From positions 1 to 32,985 of the forward strand of contig JAKMGP010000172.1 in NCBI GenBank assembly GCA_022424905.1: a DNA stretch of 32,985 bases, read 5' to 3'. The notes under the pieces were generated by a model, which had not been told where the DNA came from, did no database searches, and saw only the letters and a program-made list of their open reading frames with translations. The DNA comes from Akkermansiaceae bacterium (lineage in GTDB: Bacteria > Verrucomicrobiota > Verrucomicrobiia > Verrucomicrobiales > Akkermansiaceae). Below are positions 11,201-32,985 of this stretch, in pieces; the first letter of the stretch is position 1, and every line of letters begins with the position of its first letter. The translations under genes and the position numbers were made by a program.

Positions 11201-12655
11201 TTAGAGTCGTGGTGGATTCACTGGAGTTGTTGGGGTTTTCCCACTTGATTTAAGACGTAGGCTTTTCCGGAGCAATCCTATTTGCTTTCGAATCTCTGGG
11301 CTGGGGTCTCTAGCCAAGTTATGAAATTCGTTGGGGTCGTCGGCATGATCATAGAGCTCAATTCCTGCTTTCCCTTCTGACCATTCGGTATAGCGCCATC
11401 TGGTTGTTCGGATACTACAACCCATCGTCATTTTCTTCAGGCGGTTGTCGGGAGGCCTTAGAATTTGGGTGATGGCTTCTCCTTTCCATTCAGCCAAAGG
11501 GTTTTCGAGTAAGGGCGCAAGGCTGCGACCGGCCAGCTTTTGCGTTTGTGGGTGAGGCAGGCTAGCGAGATTAATTAGGGTTGGGTATATATCGACAAAC
11601 TCTACGATTTGACTGGAGCTTTTCCCATTTCCTCGGGCCCGCGGATCGAGAAAAATAAGAGGGGCACGGGCCCCCTCTTCAAATAGGGTGCGCTTTTGCC
11701 AGATTCCTTGATGTTCTCCAAGGTGGTAACCGTGATCGCTCCAAAAAACGATAATAGTGTTTTGAGCTAAGCCGAGTTCGCCGAGCGAGTTTAGAATGCG
11801 CCCGACTTGAGCGTCCACGAATGAGACGCACGCATAGTAGGCTTGCAGCGCTTTCAGGCAGGTCTGTTCTTCGAGGTTATAATTAGGAATGGGGTTGTTG
11901 TGGGCAAAAGCAGCAGCAGGAATATCTTCCCGATCATCTGCTGGGGCAAAGGGTAGCCGCAACTTTTCGATCGGATAGAGGTCGAAGTATTTTTTGGGAG
12001 CGACGTAAGGGGTGTGCGGTCGAAAAAACCCTACCGCGATGAAGAATGATTCATCTTTGTGCTCCTTTATCAATTTGATGGCCTCGCTTGCAATCATGCC
12101 GTCAGTTTGCTCTTCATCGGTGCCGTCAGCAGCAAGCCAACTGAGAGCCCCGGAGATTTTTCGGTGGGGTTCGGCATTAAATATCAACTCTTCGTCGGTT
12201 TTATCTCTGCCCCTCGGGTTAATTGTTTTTTGCCATGAAGGAGCATCGTCGAAGCCATCTGTTCCAATGCTGGCAGGGACATTATAATGATAGATCTTAC
12301 CGACTCGCGAGGTTGCGTATCCGTTGTTGAGGAAGTGTTGCGAGAGAGTGGTGACCTCCGGAACTTCGTCGCGGAAGTGGCGATCGAGATCATAGACCTT
12401 GATCTGATCGGGACGCAGCCCAGTCATTAATGAAGCTCGGCTAGGGTTGCATAAGGGGATTTGATTGTATGCCCGATCAAATCGCACTCCCCGCATCGCA
12501 AGGCGATCAATGTGGGGTGTTTTGGCGACAACATCACCATAGCAACCGAGAGAGGTGGCGAGGTCGTCGACCGCGATGAAAAGGACATTTGGATTTTTAA
12601 CCTTGCTGTGAAGAAGGCCAAAACAAGGAATAAGCGTTAGAAAAACACGAATCAT
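11201..12655 (-). CDS. Sulfatase, iduronate-2-sulfatase-like
   Basis: Type I formylglycine-dependent sulfatase, 484 aa, hydrolysing sulfate esters outside the cytoplasm (signal peptide [18 protein letters not shown]). The activation motif is C69-N-P-S-R followed by [10 protein letters not shown]69 would be converted to formylglycine by an FGE or anSME enzyme that is not in this window. Metal-site pieces are VDD (29-31) and [31 protein letters not shown] and [20 protein letters not shown] resemble iduronate-2-sulfatases, pointing to a uronate or similar sulfated sugar in a polymer. The start lies 10 bp after the stop of the upstream LTD/CotH gene without a Shine-Dalgarno, so translation is probably coupled. 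The exact substrate cannot be told. Confidence 0.93.
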
Positions 12656-16567: not shown

Positions 16568-17440
16568 TCAGTTAATGCCAGCGGCTTTTTCTTTTGCTTC
16601 TTCGAGTGAAAGGCCAGCTTTAACGCCAGGACGGGTGTGGCCGATATGAGTGAGCCAAGCGGGGGCAAGGATGTTTTGTTTGGACTGAAATTTTTTGACG
16701 AGGCTGCTTGGGAGTTTTGGGAGTGGTTGTTTTAGGAGGGCTTGATAAATGGTTTGGGCCATCAGACGGTGGCCGTCCCGGTTGATATGAACGCCATCAT
16801 TGGAGAGGTGGTAATCTGGATCGATAGTTCGTTTTTCTACCATGTGTTTGTTGATCGGTGTGTGAATATCGGCAACTTGGACAACACGTGATTTCAGCGA
16901 GAGGATGAAGGTGGCGTAGCAAGCGATTACTTCGGAGTCGTAGTGCTGGTAAATTTTGGTCCAGGAAAAGACGGGCGAATTTTTTCCAACAAGCTTGTTC
17001 TTTATCCCAGGAGCTTGGGGATCAAAAGGGGGTGGGGTAAGGAGAATGAGTTGGGCGCCGGAGGCATTAACTTTGTCAATCAGGCTATGAATCCCTTTTT
17101 GATATTGGATGAATCTACGCCCTGAGAAAGGGTGATAAATGCCATCGTTCATACCGTAACAGGCGATGACGAGATCGGGGTTGATTTTGCTAAGGGCGCG
17201 GGTGAGGCGCTCGGTAACATCAGGTCTGGGGAAGGGATGAGGTGGTTCGGAGAGGCCGGTCACTCCTTCGGAAGGAAGGCCTAGGGGGATGATTTCGGGA
17301 GTGTGTTCCTGAAGTGCGAGGGCCGCTTGGAGGTCGACGACATAGTCGCGAGCGGCGGTGATGGAGTCACCAAGGAAGAGGATACGATTGGCAGTGAGAA
17401 GAGGGCTAGGCTCCCTTGCGAGATCACTTTTTTTTCCTAT
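16568..17440 (-). CDS. SGNH/GDSL hydrolase, frame without a normal start (-1 continuation of the upstream gene)
   Basis: SGNH-fold esterase or acetylhydrolase, about 290 aa if read from the A9 run. Block I is LFLGDSIT (catalytic Ser codon at 17365-17363). Then come SEGVTGLSEPPHPFPRPD, block III IACYGMNDGIYHPF, LLTPPPFDP and block V LSNDGVHINRDGHRLMA with the Asp/His pair. This is the carbohydrate-esterase-like branch common in Planctomycetes and Verrucomicrobia. The first GTG (17263) would remove block I. Between 17446 and the GDSIT codons there is no ATG, GTG or TTG in this frame, and no signal peptide. The frame is the -1 frame of the propeller gene, which ends at 17437 just after nine A's (17440-17448). 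Slippage there would yield one exported two-domain protein of about 589 aa. Alternatives are a sequencing error in the run, a broken gene, or a non-standard start. Confidence 0.8.
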   Translation of the reverse strand: MGKKSDLAREPSPLLTANRILFLGDSITAARDYVVDLQAALALQEHTPEIIPLGLPSEGVTGLSEPPHPFPRPDVTERLTRALSKINPDLVIACYGMNDGIYHPFSGRRFIQYQKGIHSLIDKVNASGAQLILLTPPPFDPQAPGIKNKLVGKNSPVFSWTKIYQHYDSEVIACYATFILSLKSRVVQVADIHTPINKHMVEKRTIDPDYHLSNDGVHINRDGHRLMAQTIYQALLKQPLPKLPSSLVKKFQSKQNILAPAWLTHIGHTRPGVKAGLSLEEAKEKAAGIN

Positions 17441-18336
17441 TTTTTTTTAAGATGGGCGCGAACTAGGGCGCTTTGCTTGGCGTCAAGAATCTCCCAGCAA
17501 GCTAGACCGTTTCCGACAAGTTCGTATTCATCAAATGTCCAGACGACCTTTCTCTCTTTATCGAGTTCGACGATCTGGGGGTTCTTATCACCGGCGTGGC
17601 AGTTGCCGATGACAAGATTGCCATTCGGAAGCTCCTGAAGGTCGGTGGTCCAGGCGAGTTCGATATTGGTGCCGGGAATTTTCTTTTTCATTTCCCAAAC
17701 AACTTTTTTATCCGGAGAGATTTCGAGGATTGAATTGCCGCTTCCTGATGCGATGAGAGTATTCCCGTTTTTGAGACGGATTGCTCCGAAGACGCGAGTT
17801 TTGGTCGCGTATTCCCAGACGATTTTACCGGTGGAATCGTATTCGGTGACGACCCCGGGGCTTTCGGCACAGGAGAGGTAGTGGCCATTGGGAAGGCTTT
17901 TGAGCATGCGAGTTTGGTGGCGGCCATTTTTTGGCAAGGGGACTTCTTTGACAATCTTGCTCTTTTTGTCGAGGTGGACGATGCGCCCGACACCGCTTTC
18001 GGCGATCATGGTGTGGCCGTCTTTGAGGCGCTGGAATGCGTGAACGTTGGCACCCTTGGAGTCGTATTTCCAAGTGATTTCCTTCTGCAGGGTGATCTCG
18101 GAGGTAATGGACCAGGAGTCGTGAAAGAGAATGTTACCGTTGGGAAGAAATTGGAGATCGTGGTGTCCGGTGTGACCGCGTTCAGGGCCTCCAGTTTTAT
18201 GTTCCCAGATAACGGTTCCGTCGAGTTCGCAGATCGCAAGAATGTTTTTACCATAGGAAGCTCCCACGAGAACAAGGCGATCTTCTTTAGCCAAGAGGGT
18301 CAGGGGCAGAAGGAAGAGTAGAACAATCAGTTTCAT
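17437..18336 (-). CDS. Exported PQQ-like beta-propeller protein
   Basis: Start ATG 18336 gives the signal peptide MKLIVLLFLLPLTLLA; the upstream in-frame TTG at 18375 would add an unlikely leader. The mature part (about 285 aa) has at least five blades ending in a Trp-rich strand: GTVIWEH, KEITWKY, GKIVWEY, KKVVWEM, RKVVWTF. Each is followed by an L-x-N-G-N/H turn (FLPNGNILF, LKDGHTM, LPNGHYLS, LKNGNTLI, LPNGNLVI). This is the PQQ-like / quinoprotein-like propeller pattern; no PQQ-binding dehydrogenase residues are recognisable, so a binding or scaffold role is likely. The ORF stops at TAG right after AAA AAA AAA, where the -1 frame continues into the SGNH hydrolase. It is the first gene of the leftward operon. 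Confidence 0.83.
   Translation of the reverse strand: MKLIVLLFLLPLTLLAKEDRLVLVGASYGKNILAICELDGTVIWEHKTGGPERGHTGHHDLQFLPNGNILFHDSWSITSEITLQKEITWKYDSKGANVHAFQRLKDGHTMIAESGVGRIVHLDKKSKIVKEVPLPKNGRHQTRMLKSLPNGHYLSCAESPGVVTEYDSTGKIVWEYATKTRVFGAIRLKNGNTLIASGSGNSILEISPDKKVVWEMKKKIPGTNIELAWTTDLQELPNGNLVIGNCHAGDKNPQIVELDKERKVVWTFDEYELVGNGLACWEILDAKQSALVRAHLKKK
17440..17448 (-). promoter_or_regulatory. A9 slippery run joining propeller and SGNH frames (candidate frameshift site)
   Basis: On the minus strand the propeller gene reads CTT AAA AAA AAA TAG. Slipping back one base at the A9 run reads through as AAA ATA GGA AAA and continues without a stop into the GDSIT block of the SGNH hydrolase. Runs of nine A's are known sites for RNA polymerase slippage and A-AAA-AAx for -1 ribosomal shifting. 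A second A8 run follows at 17428-17435. Function here is inferred from frame geometry only. Confidence 0.45.
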
Positions 18337-22001: not shown

Positions 22002-24008
22002 ATGGGGTGGATGATGACGAAGCACTACCGCCCGGAAATCGATGGCCTTCGCGCTATTTCGGTGATTGGAGTGGTTTTGTTCCACCTCGAGCTGGGTTTT
22101 CCTGGCGGTTTTGTGGGGGTCGACGTCTTCTTTGTAATTTCGGGTTATCTCATCACAGGGATTCTCCTCCGACAACTCGGTGAAGATCGGTTCTCTCTGA
22201 TGGAGTTTTGGGCGCGGAGAGTTCGCCGAATCGTTCCGGCCGCCATGGTAATGGTGGTTGGGGCTCTTCTGATTGGTGCATTCCTGCAAACTCCGGAGCG
22301 CTACGCCTCCTTGGCTCGGAGCGCAATGGCTCATGTCCTAATGGCGTCGAATTGCTACTTCACTCGCGATCAAGGCTATTTCGCCGAAAAATCCGACTAT
22401 GAACCGCTCCTTCACACCTGGTCGCTTTCGGTTGAAGAACAATTTTATCTGATCTTTCCTCTTATTGTTTGCTTCGTGTGGAAGCGGGCTCCGCAACGGC
22501 TCGTTCTCGTCTTAATAAGCGCTGCCTTGATTTCTTTCAGTTGGAGTTGGTTCGAAGTTGTTAATAATCCCAAGTGGGCCTTTTTCCTTCTTCCCGCCCG
22601 TGGCTGGGAACTCCTTGTGGGAGCGCTCTTGGCGATTCTGCCTCAAAAGACAATGCGCTCTTTTTGCGATGAAGCTTGGGCTGGGTTGGGCCTCGTCTTG
22701 GTGTTAGCTCCCATGTTCTTTTTTGATCGGCAAACCGCTTTTCCTGGTCCTGCCGCTCTGGCCCCGGTTCTCGGAGCAGTTCTTCTTATTTGGACTGGTG
22801 GAAGCACAAAAGTTGGCAAGTTGCTGGGCTGGAGAGCTTTAGTTAAGATTGGTCTTATTTCTTACTCGCTCTACCTGTGGCACTGGCCTTTTGTGGTTTT
22901 TGCTCGCGAAATGATACTTGAGCTGACGCCTACTTGGAAGATTTCGCTACTGGTTGCATCACTTCTGGCTGGTTACTCTTCTTGGCGATGGGTCGAGATG
23001 CCTTTCCGTTCGGGGTTTCTTTTGGCCACGCGGAGGCGGTCTTTGATCTTCGGGATGACATCGGCAGTGATTCTTTTTGTAATTGCCTTCTCCGTTAAAG
23101 CTAGCGGCGGATTTCCTTCAAGGCTACCCGCTGAACTGAGGCTCATTATTTCCGATATCACCTGGAATGGTGCCGAATACACGAGTGCGAAAAGCGAGGC
23201 AATTCCTATCGGTTTTCAGGATGACGGACCGGTGGATTTTGTCTTGTGGGGAGATAGCCATGGCGCTTCGGCAGCGCCCGCTGTTAATGTAGTGGCGACC
23301 GATTTTAAGCTCAAAGGTCACGCGTATCTTAATAATGGAACGCCTCCCGTGACTGGCCTCTGGTTCGCCGACATGCATGCAGCCGCAGCTGCAGAAATGG
23401 TCGCTTTAAACGAAAGGGTGCTCGCTGAAATTATCGACTCGAAACCAATGGCTGTTTTCCTTGTAGGACGATGGGTGGCGCGTTGCGAAGGTTACAATGA
23501 AGCGGAAATGGTTGGCGAACCCGACAGCCTCCGATTCACCACTATGTTAGTCGACTCGATGATTCCTGAGCCGACTTTTAAAGAGGCGAGTAGTGCCCTT
23601 GCTCGACAAATCAAAGCGATGGGAGCAAGACTTGCGGTTCACGGGATTAAACTCGTCATTTTTCAACAGGTTCCCGAAAGCAACGAAAGTCGGACTGCCT
23701 CGCGATTTTATTCCATGAAACGTTTCTCCGGGACATCAAAAGTCCCTCAATTCACGACGACTAAAGATGAATTTTTAAAGCGGCAGGAACGCACGATGAA
23801 GCTCCTTGAAAATCAGACCACCGAAAATATCAGTGTTATCGACGCGAGCAGTCGATTCTTTTTCGGGAATCATGATCAGCTCAAAGTTTATGCTGAACGA
23901 TCCTACTATCGCGATGAGGACCACCTTACCCGGGCTGGCGCAATGCACTACTTAGAGCCAGCTTTCAAAAAGTTTATGAGCTGGATCCCACGCGAAGAAT
24001 CGAAATAA
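22002..24008 (+). CDS. OafA/YrhL-like membrane acyltransferase with C-terminal SGNH domain
   Basis: Integral membrane O-acyltransferase (acyltransferase_3 family), 668 aa, expected to move acetyl or similar groups onto surface polysaccharide or LPS sugars. It opens with YRPEIDGLRAISVIGVVLFH and GGFVGVDVFFVISGYLIT, the family signature with the conserved His and the first helices. Then come FWARRVRRIVPAA, TWSLSVEEQFYLIFPL and roughly ten hydrophobic segments up to about residue 365 (SYSLYLWHWPFVVFAREM inside). The periplasmic C-terminal part is an SGNH domain: VLWGDSHG with Ser419 and DEDHLTRAG with D640/H641, a layout seen in OafA. It is monocistronic with a strong ribosome binding site; its last 35 bp overlap the 3' end of the convergent GNAT gene. 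Confidence 0.93.
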   Translation: MGWMMTKHYRPEIDGLRAISVIGVVLFHLELGFPGGFVGVDVFFVISGYLITGILLRQLGEDRFSLMEFWARRVRRIVPAAMVMVVGALLIGAFLQTPERYASLARSAMAHVLMASNCYFTRDQGYFAEKSDYEPLLHTWSLSVEEQFYLIFPLIVCFVWKRAPQRLVLVLISAALISFSWSWFEVVNNPKWAFFLLPARGWELLVGALLAILPQKTMRSFCDEAWAGLGLVLVLAPMFFFDRQTAFPGPAALAPVLGAVLLIWTGGSTKVGKLLGWRALVKIGLISYSLYLWHWPFVVFAREMILELTPTWKISLLVASLLAGYSSWRWVEMPFRSGFLLATRRRSLIFGMTSAVILFVIAFSVKASGGFPSRLPAELRLIISDITWNGAEYTSAKSEAIPIGFQDDGPVDFVLWGDSHGASAAPAVNVVATDFKLKGHAYLNNGTPPVTGLWFADMHAAAAAEMVALNERVLAEIIDSKPMAVFLVGRWVARCEGYNEAEMVGEPDSLRFTTMLVDSMIPEPTFKEASSALARQIKAMGARLAVHGIKLVIFQQVPESNESRTASRFYSMKRFSGTSKVPQFTTTKDEFLKRQERTMKLLENQTTENISVIDASSRFFFGNHDQLKVYAERSYYRDEDHLTRAGAMHYLEPAFKKFMSWIPREESK

Positions 24009-24539: not shown

Positions 24540-27170
24540 GTGCCACTTAGGTTTGATCCCAAATCGCTCCACTTTCCAGATCTAGGAATGTGGCTTGATC
24601 CACATCGGCCAAGGCCCTTTGCTTTCGTCTCGCACGGCCACGCTGACCATTTTGCACGACACCAACGCGTGCTTTGCTCACCTGGCACTGGCCACATCCT
24701 CGTTAAACGCTACGGCGTCAAAGCCTCGACAATTGAAGCGCTCGATTGGGGTGAGCAAAGAATTATTAACGACCACCACATCACCCTCTATCCTGCTGGT
24801 CATATCACAGGATCGGCCATGATTCGAATCGAGGGCCCGGATCAATCGGTCCTTTACACCGGTGACTTTAAAACTCGATCTTCTCATACTGCCGAAATCG
24901 CGGAGTTCCCGAAGTCAGACATTCTCATCATGGAGACCACCTTCGGGCGACCGCAGTTCGTCTTCCCGCCAACCGATGAGATTGAAAAAGATATCTCCCG
25001 CTTCGCTCGTGAGACTCTCGACGACGGGGAAACGCCTGTCTTTCTTGCTTATTCGCTCGGTAAAGCTCAGGAAGCTCTCGCCATTTTACACAATGCCGGA
25101 ATTGAAACGGTCGTGCACAAAACAGTTTTCGAAATGACGCAAGCTTGTCGCGACCTTAAAGTCGATTTGCCCAAACCTGTTCTCTTAGAAAAAAATATTC
25201 CGCCTGGAGTTGCTATCATTGCCCCGCCCAATGCTGTGCGGGCGCGCGTGATTCGCAGTCACAAAAAACGTCGGACTGCCATGCTCAGCGGATGGGCCCT
25301 TACTCCTGGTTCGCAATACCGTTACCAAGTTGATCAAGTCTTCCCACTTTCCGATCACGCTGATTACCCTGGCCTCCTCGAGTCAGTCGAAAAAGTCTCC
25401 CCTTCCCTAGTCTATACTCTACACGGTAGCACTCGCAAATTCGCCCGTGATCTCCGGGCCAGAGGCATCGAAGCATGGTCGATTTATGGCGACGACCAAC
25501 TCGAGCTCCTCGAATCTGCTTCTCCTGAACTTCCGCTCAAAAAAGAGCTTCCACGGCCTTCCTCCGATCTTCGTGAACTCAGCGAACTTCTCGAATCGCT
25601 TACCACTACCGCCTCTCGACTTAAGAAAATCGAACTTCTCTCGATTTTTCTCCAAGATCGCACCAACCAAGAACTACCGGTTGTTACTCGTTGGCTCAGC
25701 GGATCTGGTATCACTCATCTCGGCAATGTCATGATCCGGCAAGCCCTCCTCGAAGTCACCGGTTTCCCCCTCGCTAAATACAAAACTGTCTCTGCAAGCC
25801 AAAATGACTCCGCTCGCACTGCGAGACTTCTTCTGGAAGAAGCACCCCTTAATCCCCTTGCTCATTCCTTCAAAGAAGTTGCTACGCATTTCGACCAACT
25901 GCGTAGAGCTAATGGCGCCCTTGCTAAAACTCAGCTCCTCTCATGTTATCTCTACCAATGCCATCCGGCGGAAGGCGAGACTATGGTCCGGCTCCTCACC
26001 GGCGGGCTTCGCGCCGGAGCTAAGGAAGGACTTTATGAAGAAGCTGTGGCTCAGGCTTTTGATGTATCGCACTCGGATATTCGCTATGCCTCGATGCTCA
26101 CCGGCGATCTTGGCGAGGTCGCTATCGCAGCAAAAAATAAAACACTCGCTGAGATCCAATTGCGGCCTGGCACGCCTATCAAACCGATGTTGGCTTCTCC
26201 CACTGAAGCTGCGGAAGACATTATCAAATGGCACGATAGCAAAGATATCCCACTTTGGCTTGAGCCAAAGTACGATGGGATTCGGAGCCAACTTCATGTT
26301 ACTTCAGATGGGGCTCATCTTTTTTCTCGTGATCTGCGCTCACTTGATGATGAATTCCCCGAGATCCTTGAGGCTGCTCGGACCCTTCCCCCATGCCTTT
26401 TAGATGGTGAACTCATCGCCTACGCGGAAGGAAAACGGCTTACTTTTTTCGACCTCCAAAAACGACTTGGCCGGAAGAAAATTCAGGGTGATCTCTTTCT
26501 TGGAGCCGCCATCCCGGTAAAATTTATGGCCTTCGATTGTCTCTATTCCCAAAGAGCACTCATTGATGCTCCCTTGGAAGAACGCCGGAAAGCCCTCGAA
26601 TCGCTGGAACTCTTCGGCCCCTTTACACTAGTGCCCTTCATTCGTCTCGACGGAGCTGATATCGAAGCTTTGGAGCGAGAATTTAAAAAAGCAATGTCTG
26701 ATGACAATGAAGGACTCATCGCAAAAAATTGCTCATCGAGTTATCAGCCGGGTCGACGAGGTCAGTCATGGAAGAAGCTCAAAGGTGTGATGCCGACTCT
26801 CGATTGTGTTGTTATCGCTGCTCAGCAAGGACATGGAAAACGGTCAGGACTACTATCGGATTACACTTTTGCTGTGAGGGACAAAAAATCCGGCGAACTT
26901 CGGACCCTAGGAAAAGCCTACTCTGGCCTCACGGACGATGAAATTGAAGATCTCACCGACCATTTCCAAAAGACCACGATTGAAAGAATCTCACGACGGG
27001 TCGTGAAAGTCAAACCGACCATCGTGCTGGAAATTGCCTTTGACAAGATTCGTCTCTCAAAGCGCCACGATTCTGGCCTTGCCTTGCGATTCCCGCGGAT
27101 CAAAGCGATCCGGCACGACAAAAATCTGGATGAAATCGACACTCTTCAAACTGCCCAAAAATTACTTTAG
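24540..27170 (+). CDS. Fused MBL-fold DNA exonuclease and ATP-dependent DNA ligase
   Basis: Single 876-aa chain, GTG start (an in-frame TAG at 24522 limits other choices). Residues 1-335 are the ligase-associated metallo-beta-lactamase exonuclease: SHGHADH (H32, H34, D36, H37 metal ligands), PAGHITGSAM, LYTGDFKTR, METTFGRP and PLSDHADYPGLL. Residues about 345-535 are the ligase N-terminal DNA-binding region. Residues 545-760 are the adenylation domain: LEPKYDGIR with nucleophile K577, SRDLRSLDDEFPE, LDGELIAY, MAFDCLY and EGLIAKN, closing with WKKLKG. The rest is an OB fold. In the known four-gene repair cluster (Lhr-type helicase, phosphoesterase, exonuclease, ligase) these are separate genes; here two are joined and the other two are absent nearby. 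Expected role: end processing and sealing in DNA repair. Confidence 0.93.
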   Translation: MPLRFDPKSLHFPDLGMWLDPHRPRPFAFVSHGHADHFARHQRVLCSPGTGHILVKRYGVKASTIEALDWGEQRIINDHHITLYPAGHITGSAMIRIEGPDQSVLYTGDFKTRSSHTAEIAEFPKSDILIMETTFGRPQFVFPPTDEIEKDISRFARETLDDGETPVFLAYSLGKAQEALAILHNAGIETVVHKTVFEMTQACRDLKVDLPKPVLLEKNIPPGVAIIAPPNAVRARVIRSHKKRRTAMLSGWALTPGSQYRYQVDQVFPLSDHADYPGLLESVEKVSPSLVYTLHGSTRKFARDLRARGIEAWSIYGDDQLELLESASPELPLKKELPRPSSDLRELSELLESLTTTASRLKKIELLSIFLQDRTNQELPVVTRWLSGSGITHLGNVMIRQALLEVTGFPLAKYKTVSASQNDSARTARLLLEEAPLNPLAHSFKEVATHFDQLRRANGALAKTQLLSCYLYQCHPAEGETMVRLLTGGLRAGAKEGLYEEAVAQAFDVSHSDIRYASMLTGDLGEVAIAAKNKTLAEIQLRPGTPIKPMLASPTEAAEDIIKWHDSKDIPLWLEPKYDGIRSQLHVTSDGAHLFSRDLRSLDDEFPEILEAARTLPPCLLDGELIAYAEGKRLTFFDLQKRLGRKKIQGDLFLGAAIPVKFMAFDCLYSQRALIDAPLEERRKALESLELFGPFTLVPFIRLDGADIEALEREFKKAMSDDNEGLIAKNCSSSYQPGRRGQSWKKLKGVMPTLDCVVIAAQQGHGKRSGLLSDYTFAVRDKKSGELRTLGKAYSGLTDDEIEDLTDHFQKTTIERISRRVVKVKPTIVLEIAFDKIRLSKRHDSGLALRFPRIKAIRHDKNLDEIDTLQTAQKLL

Positions 27171-27929: not shown

Positions 27930-28111
27930 ATAATGGCAAAGACAAGCTTGGGCTGAAAATTGGAACCCTTTCTCATGAAGTTATCATATTAAATTAGGCA
28001 ACTTCTGAGTTGTTTGGCGCTCACCAGACGGGGATATTAACTCCCGAGGAATTTTCATCAGCGCAAGAAATTGTATGCTACGTTCAAACGTTTCTCGTCC
28101 CCATTCACGTT
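27930..28111. other. Divergent gap between dioxygenase and giant CotH gene
   Basis: About 180 bp with no gene. An AT-rich imperfect palindrome (ATTATT and AATAAT arms around 27920-27934) overlaps the possible dioxygenase TTG start and could be an operator, but there is no further support. No clear ribosome binding site precedes 28112. Confidence 0.3.
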
Positions 28112-31100
28112 ATGTCTCAATTCTGGCGTTTCTTTTTCCCCTTAATCCTGACTGGGTGCCTTTCGGCTCAGATTCGCATTAACGAGTTCATGGCCTCAAA
28201 TACGAGGGCTTTTCCCGATATTGTAGATTTTGAGGATTACCCCGATTGGATCGAGCTCCATAATCCTAACCTTGAGGACGCGAGTCTTGACGGGTTTTTC
28301 CTTAGCGATGATCCCGCCTCTCCGTTCAAATGGCCGATTCCTGATGGCGCGGTTGTTCCGGCTGGAGGATACTTGCTTTTCATGGCGGACGGTAACGATG
28401 CTGGCCTCGGGGAATCCCACCCAAGGGGATATTGGCCGTGGCGGGATTTTACAACCGAGCGGTACCACACTAATTTCGGATTGAGCGCTGAGGGAGAATC
28501 GGTCGTCTTGACTCGGACGACAGGCGCTACGTCTACGACGCTCGTCACCACTGGTTCTCGGTGGGCTTATTTGGACGATGGTTCGGATCAATCAACTCAG
28601 TGGAGAGCGCGTAATTTTGACGACAGTGGTTGGGCCTCGGGCCTTGCTGATTTTGGATACGGCGACGACCCCGTCACTGAAGTCTCATATGGCGGAGATG
28701 AGGATAATAAATATATCACGACCTACTTCCGGCATAAATTTGACGTAACAGATTCCAGTCTTTACCAAAATCTTTCGCTCGCTCTTCAAGCGGATGATGG
28801 GGCTGTTGTCTATTTAAATGGGGCGGAGGTCGTTCGTGATAACATGCCAGCTGGCATCATTACCTCACTCACGACAGCCGTTGGAAGTGTCGGCAGTAGT
28901 GAGGCAGATTTTCTTAACTACCTTATCCCTGTCTCCGGGTTGGTGACGGGTGAAAATGTCCTCGCGGTTGAGATTCATCAGCGAAGTGCTGACAGCTCGG
29001 ACATCCGCTTCGACCTTTCTCTTGAGGCTTCTTATTACACCGGAGTCGTAACGGTGGATACGATCTCCTACGGTAGCCAAGTTACCGACATTTCTTATGG
29101 CCGTGATGCTGAGTCGCCTAACATTTGGAAGCAGTTTGCCGAATCTACTCCAGGATCTGCCAATACGACTGCTGAGGTTACCAGCCTGCGTCTTTCTAGT
29201 CGTGGAGTTACCATTGCTCCGCGAGCCGGCTTATATTCTTCTGATCAAATCATTAGTCTTAGTACGACTGAGGGAGAGATTTATTACACCTTGGATGGGA
29301 GTAATCCGTCTACTTCGGCTACGCTTTATACGGAGCCTTTCCCGATTAGCGCAACCACCATTGTAAGAGCCCGTGTCTTCGAAGCCGGTAAGGTTCCTGG
29401 CCCTATTCTGACTTCGACATATATCTACGGAGAGTCTTTTAATGGCCTCCCCATCGTCTCTGCTGTGGCCGATCCCGAAACTCTCTTCGGAGATGAAATC
29501 GGGATCTACGACAACGAGCACGAACCGGTCCGCAGCAGAATGAATGAGGTTTATAAAAAGAAGGACGCACCCGGGCATGTTGAATTTTTTCCCGTGGATG
29601 GGAGTGAGGGGTTCCAAGTCAATGGTGGCTTCCGTATAGGTGGCGAAAACAACTGGGGATCTCATGAGCAAAAGGCTCTTAACTTCACTTTGCGCGGGAA
29701 ATATGGTGATGATGCTATCAAATATGACCTTTTCCCCGGAAGCAATATTCCTGTTCATACCGCTATCGCTTTTCGCGAAGGTGGTGATGATTGGGATGAT
29801 GCGATGCTTCGCGATGCCATGTGGAACACCATTGCAGAAGGTCGCCTCGAGGCTGAGACCAATGCCTCTCGTCCGTGCGTTGTTTTTTTAAATGGAGAAT
29901 ACTGGGGAGTTTATAACATTCGCTCACGCTGGGACGAGCAATGGCTCTTCGAACATTACGGTGTCGACAATGGCGAATATGACCACATTGGATATGGCCG
30001 CTTTACAAGTAGTAGCACGACTCTAGGTGTCGAGAATGGTGACTTAGAAGATTGGCTTGAACTCCTAGAATTTATCGACGCGAACGACATCAACGAAGCT
30101 GGCAATTGGGCCTTTGTGGAGTCGCGCGTTGATCTCGATAGCTTCATCGATTTTATCGTTTCTGAGTCATTCGCTAATAATACTAGCTGGGGCCATAACC
30201 GCGAAATTTGGAAGGCCCACAAACCTGGTAGTAAATGGCGGTGGTTTCTCCCCGACATGGATCGCACTTTTAAAGATTCGGATATCAATCGTAATGTTTT
30301 CGACGATATCTTGAAGGACGACGCCCTGCTCGACCGCATTAAAAACCAACCTACTTTTAAAGCTCGGCTGGCCCAGCGCTACGCGGCTCATATTGCTTCT
30401 ACTTTTTCCTCTGCTCGGATTAACAAGATCATCGATTCCCTCGGTGCTATTATCACACCGGAGCTCGATCGCCACAAAGAGAAGTGGGATGGGAGCATTG
30501 ATGCTGATGACCAGGCCCGCGATCTCAAAGAAATCAAAGACTACAACGAAGAACGGTTGACTGAAGTTCACGACGAGATCGACTCCGAACTTCGCATCGA
30601 CCCAGCTGTTGATATTACTTTTGTGGCCAATGGTTCTGGTTCCTTCCGTATTGAGGGTGTTGAAGTCGAAGCTGGGACCCTCAAACTTTTTCCAAACCTC
30701 AATACCACTGTCGAAGCTGTTCCTGCTCCTGGCTTTGCTTTCGTTTCGTGGGAAGCTCTTCCGGGAGAGGCTACCACAATTCTCAATTTTGCTGGTCCTG
30801 CAACTCTAACTGCCAACTTCATTCCTGCTGGTGGAATTGTTACGGGGGGCACCCTCGCTTCAAATACGACGTTTACGCTCGCGAACTCACCCTATTTTAT
30901 CGAGACCGATCTTATTGTCCCTGCTGGCACGACTTTAGATATCGATCCCGGAGTTGTTCTCGAAATGGCGACTGGACGCAATATCCGCGTTATGGGCACT
31001 CTTGAAATTAAGGGCACAGCTGGTCGGGAGGTTATCATCCGCGGACGGAACAACACTACCTGGGGAGGACTTTCATTTGAAGAACCTTTGACGACTTCTA

Positions 31101-32985
31101 CTCTCACGCATCTCATCGTGCGGGATGCTTCGCGTGGTCAAGAGCCCACTCTTTATCCGGCGGGGATTGCTGGTTTAAATGCCGATGTTGTTATCGACTT
31201 TCTGAATATTTCTGGGGGACGTGGCCCTCTCTTTTTTCGGGGTGGCTCGACAATCCTACGTGACAGTTTTGTCGACATTCCGATTACGGGCGATGGCATT
31301 AATATCAAAGGTGGCTACGCCGAAACTCACCGCACGACCTTCCTAGGAAACAACTCTGTCGATACCGATGCTATCGACTACGATGGCGTGATCAATGGGA
31401 TCATCAAGGGTTGCCGAATCTATAATTTTCGTGGGTTCAACAGCGACGGAATCGATACTGGTGAGCAATGTGTTGATGTTCTCATTGAAGGAAATTCTAT
31501 CTTTTATAATTCTGATAAGGGGATCTCAGTGGGCCAAGGTTCAACTGTCATTATGAGAAATAACCTTGTTGTCGGCTGCCTTCAGGGTGTTGGTGTTAAA
31601 GATGCTGGTTCAGCTATTTTGATTGATCAAAACACTTTTGTTGACTGCGCGGAGGCTGTCGCCTCTTTTGAGAAGAATTTTGGCAAGGGTGGAGGAGCTG
31701 CAATTATTACCAATAGCATTTTTTCAAAATGCGGAGTGCCAGTGAGTTCCGACGCCTTTTCTACGCTTACGGTCTCTTACAGTCTGAGCGATACCACTCC
31801 GCTCGTGGGCTCCAACAACCTTATAGCTGACCCCCTGTTCGTCGATGCTACCGACCTCAACTTTCAGCTTTTGCTCGAATCACCCGCAAAAGATAGTGGT
31901 GACCCAGCTCATACCCTCGATCCTGACGCGACTCGTGCCGACCGCGGCGCACTCTACACTTACTCATCAGATGACTATCCTTTTGAAATCGGCAAAACTG
32001 TGGTCATTAACGAAATTCTTGCAAATTCTGGAACTGCGCCTGATTGGATAGAGCTACACAATCGATCTTCGAGCCCGGTTAATATCGGGGGGTGGTTCCT
32101 CAGCGATGATGGTAGTGATCTCGCAAAATATCGAATTCCTCTTAATACTGTTCTCCCAGCAAATGGTTACCTGACCTTCTTTGAGGATATTAATTTTGGA
32201 CCTGAAAGTGCTGACCCAAATCGGATTACGGGCTTTGGACTCAGTGATAATGGAGAAACCGTGCATCTCACGTCTGCTATCAATGACGTTCTGACAGACT
32301 ATCGGTTTAAGGAAAATTTTGGAGCTTCGCTGGAAGGGACCACACTCGGATACTATTACAAGTTAGGATCGGGAACCTACAACTTCATTGCTTTGCAAGA
32401 TCCCACTCCGACCGCGCCCAACGCTGCGCCTAAAATCGGGCCCATCATCATTTCTGAGGTGATGTATAATCCAGCCATCGATGGCGCTTCGGAATATCTT
32501 GAGTTACTAAACATCAGTGATTCTTCGGTCTCTCTCTTTGATAATACGACTGGTAAGGCTTGGCAATTTAGCGATGGAATTGACTACGAATTTCCTGCTG
32601 GGGCCCCTCTCGTTATGGCTCCGGGTGAGCGTATTGTTCTCACCCGAAGTCTCACCGCATTTAACTCGGAATTTACGACACCTGAAGGAACTCGTGTTTT
32701 CGAGTGGCTCACTGGAAAACTTTCTGGGGGTGGTGAGACCGTCCAACTTGCTCGCCCTGGCCCCGTTAACGACCTCAATGAAGTACAATATGTTCGGGTT
32801 GATCGGGTAAAATATAACAACAAAGCCCCTTGGCCGATCAGCCCGGATGGCGATGGTCCTTCGCTCACGAAAATTGCCGAGAATCAATATGGAAATGACT
32901 ACCTCAACTGGCGTGCCGCTGCTGGCAGCCCCGGAGCTGGGGCCCCCGGGCTTTCTTATGACGACTGGGTCATCTCTAATAACAT
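28112..32985 (+). CDS. Giant exported lamin-tail / CotH / beta-helix protein, 3' end outside the window
   Basis: Open without a stop from ATG 28112 to the right edge: 1624 codons and continuing. Signal peptide MSQFWRFFFPLILTGCLSAQ; the C at residue 16 might be a lipobox. Domains by rough residue: lamin-tail 21-135 (IRINEFMASNTRAFPD); galactose-binding-like 163-310 (ALQADDGAVVYLNGAEVV); chitobiase-type sandwich 368-437 (IYYTLDGSNPSTS); CotH kinase-like 444-817 (LPIVSAVADPETLFG, FLNGEYWGVYNIRSRWDEQ, WFLPDMDRTFKDSD); InlB-type repeat 835-907 (VEAVPAPGFAFVSWE); right-handed beta-helix 910-1280 (ILRDSFVDIP, GINIKGGYAE, VLIEGNSIFYN, VIMRNNLVVG); lamin-tail 1297-1420 (VVINEILANSG); another lamin-tail from 1445 (IIISEVMYNPAIDG). 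It shares its first domains with the 1276-aa protein at 12666-16496. No Shine-Dalgarno. Confidence 0.88.
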   Translation, partial: MSQFWRFFFPLILTGCLSAQIRINEFMASNTRAFPDIVDFEDYPDWIELHNPNLEDASLDGFFLSDDPASPFKWPIPDGAVVPAGGYLLFMADGNDAGLGESHPRGYWPWRDFTTERYHTNFGLSAEGESVVLTRTTGATSTTLVTTGSRWAYLDDGSDQSTQWRARNFDDSGWASGLADFGYGDDPVTEVSYGGDEDNKYITTYFRHKFDVTDSSLYQNLSLALQADDGAVVYLNGAEVVRDNMPAGIITSLTTAVGSVGSSEADFLNYLIPVSGLVTGENVLAVEIHQRSADSSDIRFDLSLEASYYTGVVTVDTISYGSQVTDISYGRDAESPNIWKQFAESTPGSANTTAEVTSLRLSSRGVTIAPRAGLYSSDQIISLSTTEGEIYYTLDGSNPSTSATLYTEPFPISATTIVRARVFEAGKVPGPILTSTYIYGESFNGLPIVSAVADPETLFGDEIGIYDNEHEPVRSRMNEVYKKKDAPGHVEFFPVDGSEGFQVNGGFRIGGENNWGSHEQKALNFTLRGKYGDDAIKYDLFPGSNIPVHTAIAFREGGDDWDDAMLRDAMWNTIAEGRLEAETNASRPCVVFLNGEYWGVYNIRSRWDEQWLFEHYGVDNGEYDHIGYGRFTSSSTTLGVENGDLEDWLELLEFIDANDINEAGNWAFVESRVDLDSFIDFIVSESFANNTSWGHNREIWKAHKPGSKWRWFLPDMDRTFKDSDINRNVFDDILKDDALLDRIKNQPTFKARLAQRYAAHIASTFSSARINKIIDSLGAIITPELDRHKEKWDGSIDADDQARDLKEIKDYNEERLTEVHDEIDSELRIDPAVDITFVANGSGSFRIEGVEVEAGTLKLFPNLNTTVEAVPAPGFAFVSWEALPGEATTILNFAGPATLTANFIPAGGIVTGGTLASNTTFTLANSPYFIETDLIVPAGTTLDIDPGVVLEMATGRNIRVMGTLEIKGTAGREVIIRGRNNTTWGGLSFEEPLTTSTLTHLIVRDASRGQEPTLYPAGIAGLNADVVIDFLNISGGRGPLFFRGGSTILRDSFVDIPITGDGINIKGGYAETHRTTFLGNNSVDTDAIDYDGVINGIIKGCRIYNFRGFNSDGIDTGEQCVDVLIEGNSIFYNSDKGISVGQGSTVIMRNNLVVGCLQGVGVKDAGSAILIDQNTFVDCAEAVASFEKNFGKGGGAAIITNSIFSKCGVPVSSDAFSTLTVSYSLSDTTPLVGSNNLIADPLFVDATDLNFQLLLESPAKDSGDPAHTLDPDATRADRGALYTYSSDDYPFEIGKTVVINEILANSGTAPDWIELHNRSSSPVNIGGWFLSDDGSDLAKYRIPLNTVLPANGYLTFFEDINFGPESADPNRITGFGLSDNGETVHLTSAINDVLTDYRFKENFGASLEGTTLGYYYKLGSGTYNFIALQDPTPTAPNAAPKIGPIIISEVMYNPAIDGASEYLELLNISDSSVSLFDNTTGKAWQFSDGIDYEFPAGAPLVMAPGERIVLTRSLTAFNSEFTTPEGTRVFEWLTGKLSGGGETVQLARPGPVNDLNEVQYVRVDRVKYNNKAPWPISPDGDGPSLTKIAENQYGNDYLNWRAAAGSPGAGAPGLSYDDWVISNN

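Follow-up and report, generated by a model that had tools for sequence, protein, structure and literature searches.

A conserved, putatively slippage-made fusion of a beta-propeller and a startless SGNH hydrolase in an Akkermansiaceae bacterium and its relatives

In a stretch of 32,985 nucleotides from an Akkermansiaceae bacterium (contig JAKMGP010000172.1; "the window"), a gene for a secreted beta-propeller ends on a run of nine A's directly before its stop codon, and an SGNH hydrolase frame without a usable start codon lies behind it in the -1 frame. We interpret this arrangement, which recurs in related genomes, as a conserved gene fusion made by slippage, whichever machine slips, and on the sequence comparisons below put the probability of this reading at roughly 0.84. 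Most readings of the propeller gene would stop at its TAG and yield a secreted propeller alone; a fraction would shift to -1 on the A-run and continue into the hydrolase, yielding one exported fusion protein that takes its start codon and signal peptide from the propeller and carries the SGNH esterase behind a flexible linker. One A added by the polymerase, or a ribosomal -1 shift, would give the identical protein. That slippage occurs, its rate and the use of its products we infer from comparing genomes, all of which are drafts.

The genes of the locus lie on the minus strand. carB (21665-18468, identified by eye from its translation) is followed by the propeller gene (18336-17437, 299-aa 0-frame product; ORF, Pfam and model), the startless SGNH frame (17446-16568, 292 aa from stop to stop and 290 aa after the slip; ORF, Pfam, alignment and model) and, 3' of it, a CotH/LTD gene (16496-12666). 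The propeller gene reads CTT AAA AAA AAA TAG at its 3' end, as the original prediction had it to the base. The A9 run, our proposed slip site, occupies 17448-17440 and offers A_AAA_AAA in the -1 register; the 0-frame TAG (17437-17439) follows directly 3' of the run, and the TAA that bounds the hydrolase frame upstream (17449-17447) overlaps it. The hydrolase frame opens with a fast-evolving linker region, of equal length in four aligned genomes (17387-17446), and then has the GDSIT block with the catalytic serine (17357-17371; sequence and alignment).

Relative to the propeller the SGNH frame is at -1, and its first ATG, GTG or TTG is a GTG at codon 61, GDSIT standing earlier, at codon 25 (counting from 0). 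The frame scan agrees with the original prediction that GDSIT precedes every usable start and that no such codon separates it from the upstream TAA; the frames also give the fusion length that had been forecast alongside the 299-aa propeller form, about 589 aa (299 + 290 = 589). Overlapping or abutting frames of which the second has no start of its own are what is looked for in a slippage or frameshift pair, and the only initiator within reach of the hydrolase would be the propeller's, by way of a -1 shift. Read-through of the 0-frame stop is not supported: the next stop comes 54 codons on, and the intervening sequence is not hydrolase.

The A9 is the only one in the window, where dinucleotide shuffles average 2.05, so its occurrence is unsurprising by count, and the whole genome has 41 A9 matches in 4.05 Mb, overlapping ones included. 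Its weight lies in its position, the absent start codon and its conservation, not in its count. An open -1 frame past a gene end is likewise nothing unusual: 15 gene ends of the window were tested, and three besides the propeller's have one of more than 370 codons. A search of the same genome with the pattern AAAAAAAAANTAG found no matches, which is uninformative on other A9-TAG junctions because the pattern does not match A9-TAG itself. A second run, of eight A's, lies 4 nt beyond the A9 (17435-17428, minus strand) and is absent from the three closest counterparts described below (G038, G023 and G017); in our genome (G000) it could allow a further slip, out of the hydrolase frame.

The translated propeller ORF begins MKLIVLLFLLPLTLLAK, and residues 1-16 (MKLIVLLFLLPLTLLA; 18289-18336, minus strand) look by eye like a signal peptide, in keeping with the earlier statement that the propeller has one and the SGNH frame none. 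Four propeller-type Pfam families, ASST and PQQ_2 among them, score above cut-off. A model from a shallow alignment of 3 sequences (mean pLDDT 80.4) has the closed fold of an ASST/PQQ-like beta-propeller and matches 3no2 best in the PDB (TM 0.73/0.79). Since the model closes in a helix (residues 286-297) just ahead of the C-terminal lysines, and since the free propellers of relatives, L244 excepted, terminate within a few residues of the same place, the propeller-only product is, as modelled, a complete protein.

The SGNH frame belongs to the SGNH/GDSL hydrolases, with PF13472 and PF00657 above cut-off. Residues G26, D27, S28, G56/G64, N100, D217 and H220 are invariant in 37 sequences; in this family the catalytic roles fall to Ser28, Asn100, Asp217 and His220, and G56/G64 presumably holds the glycine of the SGNH block. 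A model from the 37 sequences has an intact fold (pLDDT 92.5), with linker residues 1-7 below 50. A sequence search for hydrolase relatives of known structure found none at E 0.001, and the nearest solved folds, at 16-21% identity, are esterases and acetyltransferases (BT4096, polyvinyl alcohol esterase, PatB and PbeAcXE). Because these matches are remote, they do no more than suggest an ester-cleaving role on a glycan; judging from the same fold matches, an acetylated or otherwise esterified carbohydrate is the likely substrate.

We searched for the SGNH protein in 38 genomes (our own, the genus and the order), 34 of which had some match, and for the propeller in 27 genomes of the genus. The same 292-aa SGNH frame was found in G023 (92% identical) and G017 (86%), and the propeller search added G038, so that a startless SGNH frame stands at -1 behind the propeller in four genomes. 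The junction reads CTT-A9-TAG in G000, G038 and G023 and CTT-A8C-TAG in G017; in all four the frame after it has 290 stop-free codons, the first start codon comes at codon 61 or 98, and the order carB, propeller, hydrolase, CotH is syntenic. In neither gene is any bin less conserved than the first 30 nt past the junction, where the four genomes agree in 12 of 30 columns; each propeller bin has 20-28 such columns. Because the -1 frame is closed directly upstream in these four, the shift must fall inside the run.

Some other features of the region were noted in passing. A sulfatase between the CotH and ThuA genes (11201-12655) has no match in the G038 locus L062, where ThuA directly follows CotH. 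On the plus strand, 22002-24008 encodes a second SGNH-type protein close to the locus, an acyltransferase-3 protein whose SGNH domain is C-terminal; 24540-27170 encodes a GTG-started 876-aa protein that by eye fuses a metallo-beta-lactamase-type nuclease to an ATP-dependent DNA ligase; and a 1658-aa frame, CotH/LTD-like by eye (28010-32985), runs past the right contig end. A plasmid search with the locus DNA gave no match; matches in NCBIfam were far below cut-off.

A second architecture was found in G004 and G040, where the same propeller (84-85% identical) ends GGA10G-TAG. Here the -1 frame encodes a different protein, of 573 aa counted from the junction, in which a peptidase-like domain bearing the HExxH motif HELAH precedes an SGNH domain. 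Its first ATG, GTG or TTG comes only at codon 233 in G004 and codon 207 in G040, both within the peptidase-like domain. This domain matches ATLF and Peptidase_M90 in Pfam, below curated cut-offs only. In both genomes the -1 frame is open for 51-52 codons further upstream of the run, which is therefore the likely but not the only possible slip place. The G004 locus has the CotH neighbour in common with the four and no carB in the flank examined; at the G040 locus there is only a CotH-like match of 34%. In all six genomes with an intact downstream frame the TAG lies immediately 3' of the slippery codon, and the organisation, with a slippery run in the overlap, is kept among non-identical homologues, although the six are close relatives and the counts not independent.

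Relatives of the downstream genes also occur on their own, as peptidase-like plus SGNH proteins in G010, G002 and G018 and as SGNH alone in G013, in each case with an ATG and a signal-like N-terminus. In the six, by contrast, the downstream gene has neither start nor signal peptide, the two things that the propeller offers. The propeller tree unites the four as a clade (97/99) within a group of nine (100/100) that also holds G004, G040, G020, G021 and G003. In the hydrolase tree G004 and G040 group with the free-standing G010 and G013 (87/92), not with the four, and the propeller search found no match in G010 or G013. The two architectures may therefore be separate events; a single origin with later loss of the peptidase-like part, and two captures at one lysine-rich tail, would both fit.

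Both frames are under protein-level selection. In the six pairs of the four genomes dN/dS (Nei-Gojobori) is 0.16-0.31 for the SGNH frame, 0.87-2.6 for the same DNA in the other two frames, and 0.06-0.10 for the propeller; for the G040/G004 downstream protein it is 0.161 at dS 0.50. Given this purifying selection the hydrolase is very probably translated, although such selection speaks for translation of the frame and not for its route. Between G000 and G023 the hydrolase dS, at 0.14, does not reach half the propeller value next to it (0.345; 16568-18336 vs L145), which hints at interspecies recombination.

Loss of the arrangement can also be seen. G021 and G003 have CT-A8-CTAGC at the junction site, a changed register, followed in G021 by a hydrolase remnant (32 aa at 50%; tblastn E 2e-4, blastn E 1.6e-8) and in G003 by a weak one (tblastn E 0.07; blastn E 0.001 against G023 DNA). 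In G020 the propeller, 86% identical, does not end on such a run, and no hydrolase was found in the 3.6 kb examined downstream of it.

As a control we scored 110 hydrolase loci, drawn from among the best 80 of 492 and 30 of a second list (two of 112, cut by contig ends, were set aside), some genomes entering twice. A start codon lies upstream of the SGNH block in 104; the 6 startless loci all come from the four genomes, two of which are counted twice. G004 and G040 score as having a start here, because start codons in their peptidase-like domain precede the SGNH block. On the propeller side, an A-run of at least 8 in the last 36 nt occurs in 8 of 49 propellers (24 plus 25 order-level loci; L244, which runs 33 codons past its match, is counted as is), and all 8 are followed by a hydrolase or its remnant. 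The six have runs of 10, 10, 9, 9, 9 and 8, both remnant genomes have one of 8, and the other 41 propellers reach at most 7; in the examined flanks of these 41 we found no hydrolase or peptidase-like match (16 searched at E 1e-3, 25 at E 1e-6). Left unscored were the propellers of G039 and G246, which a contig end truncates, and those of three distant genomes (G135, G138 and G242). No probability is attached to this association, because the genomes are related. A frame of at least 150 codons is open past the propeller in 7 of the 25 order-level loci; in 6 of these an ordinary start lies within 10 codons of the junction, and in the seventh, L242, the first start is at codon 33.

Conserved A's alone would be weak evidence, because AAA is the usual lysine codon here: each propeller has 16-18 AAA and 7-9 AAG codons, and of 19 lysine columns common to the four, 11 are AAA throughout and 5 mixed. 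Lysines coded by AAG or by short A-runs also close many of the other 41 propellers, which suggests that the slip site arose from a lysine tail already present.

As to which machine slips, the evidence leans to RNA polymerase over the ribosome, at about 55:45, because the runs of 8-10 A exceed the A6 of a heptamer and no conserved stimulator accompanies them. In that case the mRNA would gain one A at the run. More than seven A's is the length named for transcriptional slippage in PMC3711429, and all six exceed it, with A9 in three, A10 in two and A8 in one. The alternative, which overlaps our preferred explanation, leads to the same product and falls moderately short of an even chance, is a ribosomal -1 frameshift in which two lysyl-tRNAs would slip on A_AAA_AAN before the TAG. 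That register, a heptamer of the X_XXY_YYZ type, is found in 6 of 6 genomes, as the shifty A_AAA_AAG in G040 and G004, and G004 has a tRNA-Lys(UUU) and no CUU among the 30 of 35 tRNA matches examined. All six shift one way only, and a single shift direction is given in section 10 of PMC3711429 as favouring ribosomal frameshifting. Against the ribosome, the runs are longer than a heptamer needs, and neither of the dnaX-type stimulators, a downstream hairpin or an upstream Shine-Dalgarno sequence, was found. In each of the six genomes 60 nt upstream and, downstream, 60 nt and 100 nt were folded without pseudoknots; z-scores of -1.3 to 1.7 over these 18 folds show no significant or conserved stem-loop. 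The four have no Shine-Dalgarno-like sequence upstream of the run by eye, and the 30 nt beyond the junction are, as said, the most variable. In G040 and G004 an AAGGA abuts the run, presumably closer than the corresponding spacing in E. coli dnaX. Of 32 tRNA matches in our own draft genome 30 were examined and included no tRNA-Lys, so this genome does not settle the tRNA question.

The remaining explanations are all improbable. The hydrolase could be made separately, as a cytoplasmic protein, by reinitiation at a non-standard start near the TAG or at another internal start. Stop and frame do overlap, an AUA stands at the junction in three of the four, and each of the four has an AUC immediately ahead of the SGNH block; however, the junction codon varies (ATA in three, CTA in G017, GTA in G040 and G004), an internal start in G040 and G004 would also need to be non-standard, and the free-standing homologues have signal-like N-termini, so that we consider this route unlikely. 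About as improbable is phase variation, in which replication would alter the run length and switch the fusion on or off between cells. A homopolymer at a secreted-protein gene, with lengths that vary among species, would suit it, but none of the six genomes has the ON register, the length is 9 in three species, and 8-10 is short for a hypervariable tract. Still less probable is that the hydrolase is a pseudogene left by deletion: decayed remnants do stand at the same place in G021 and G003, but low dN/dS, a frame of equal length kept stop-free in four species, invariant catalytic residues and a confidently modelled fold argue against it. Least probable of all is the alternative offered by the original prediction, in which the gene is really one fused frame and a single base was misread or misassembled. 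A-runs are error-prone in some sequencing chemistries, but this reading is excluded in practice because six genomes with three junction sequences (A9-TAG, A8C-TAG, A10G-TAG) all keep the -1 relation and the missing start. Its other alternative, a fusion made by slippage, has gained from the homologues it had proposed to look for: the A9 is kept in G038 and G023 and varied to A8C in G017, the hydrolase copy is not degraded but under purifying selection, free-standing homologues have ordinary starts, and decay is seen in the two relatives with a changed register.

Fusions of this kind are already known. One close parallel is tssM1 of Citrobacter rodentium, where PMC4256274 describes transcriptional slippage on an A11 run shortly before a stop, with the extra A's measured in mRNA; these open the frame of the downstream half, and short and long products are reported as both required. 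Section 8 of PMC4256274 places neither a Shine-Dalgarno sequence nor a hairpin near that run, as here. In its account, however, tssM1 is one interrupted gene, its run lies 28 nt ahead of the stop, and the frame of the downstream half is called +1. Our run abuts the stop, the frame is -1, and the fusion would link two domains known elsewhere as separate proteins, of which the second has here neither start nor signal peptide. The dnaX genes that consist of two ORFs with A7-A10, Chlorobium species among their hosts, and the A9 of Thermus thermophilus dnaX (PMC3711429, section 23) are a further parallel; the two-ORF genes share the -1 offset at the DNA level and a run length of 7-10 among orthologues; as treated there, dnaX is one gene for a polymerase subunit, whereas here the domains are secreted and the cargo varies between species. 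As in phage lambda G/GT, as outlined in PMC5009743, a minority product would gain a domain when the frame shifts by -1 late in the first gene. In the ORF pairs of IS elements, section 5 of PMC1088944 takes conserved ORF organisation with an A9 in the overlap as the sign of functional slippage, a sign also present in G000, G038 and G023; 6 of the 7 such A9 cases in that paper are IS elements, whereas our genes are chromosomal, have conserved neighbours and include no transposase. According to the accounts in PMC4256274, PMC3711429, PMC5009743 and PMC1088944, examples of recoding kept across species to join two domains come mostly from mobile elements, from phages and from a small number of other genes, dnaX and tssM among them.

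A search of the open-licence literature found no earlier report of a propeller-hydrolase slip pair. In lambda G/GT the shift is ribosomal and uses a different heptamer; the A-run and the secreted proteins set our case apart from it. What is unusual here, beside tssM1, two-ORF dnaX, the IS elements and lambda G/GT, is that the cargo behind the run differs between species.

We tentatively propose, at a little under even odds, that the slip site is a reusable fusion joint in the lysine-rich propeller tail. Such a joint would have arisen in that tail and captured adjacent enzymes (SGNH, or peptidase-like plus SGNH), which have lost start and signal peptide of their own, would set the ratio of scaffold to enzyme and would export the enzyme only as a fusion, a break of register being followed by decay as in G021 and G003. 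On the slippage reading, the enzyme's start and signal peptide would have been replaced by a slip, and an ordinary gene caller would probably report the propeller but overlook the hydrolase or cut it short. How such a fusion originates and is lost can be tested directly on the natural series of no run, run with intact cargo and run whose cargo has decayed.
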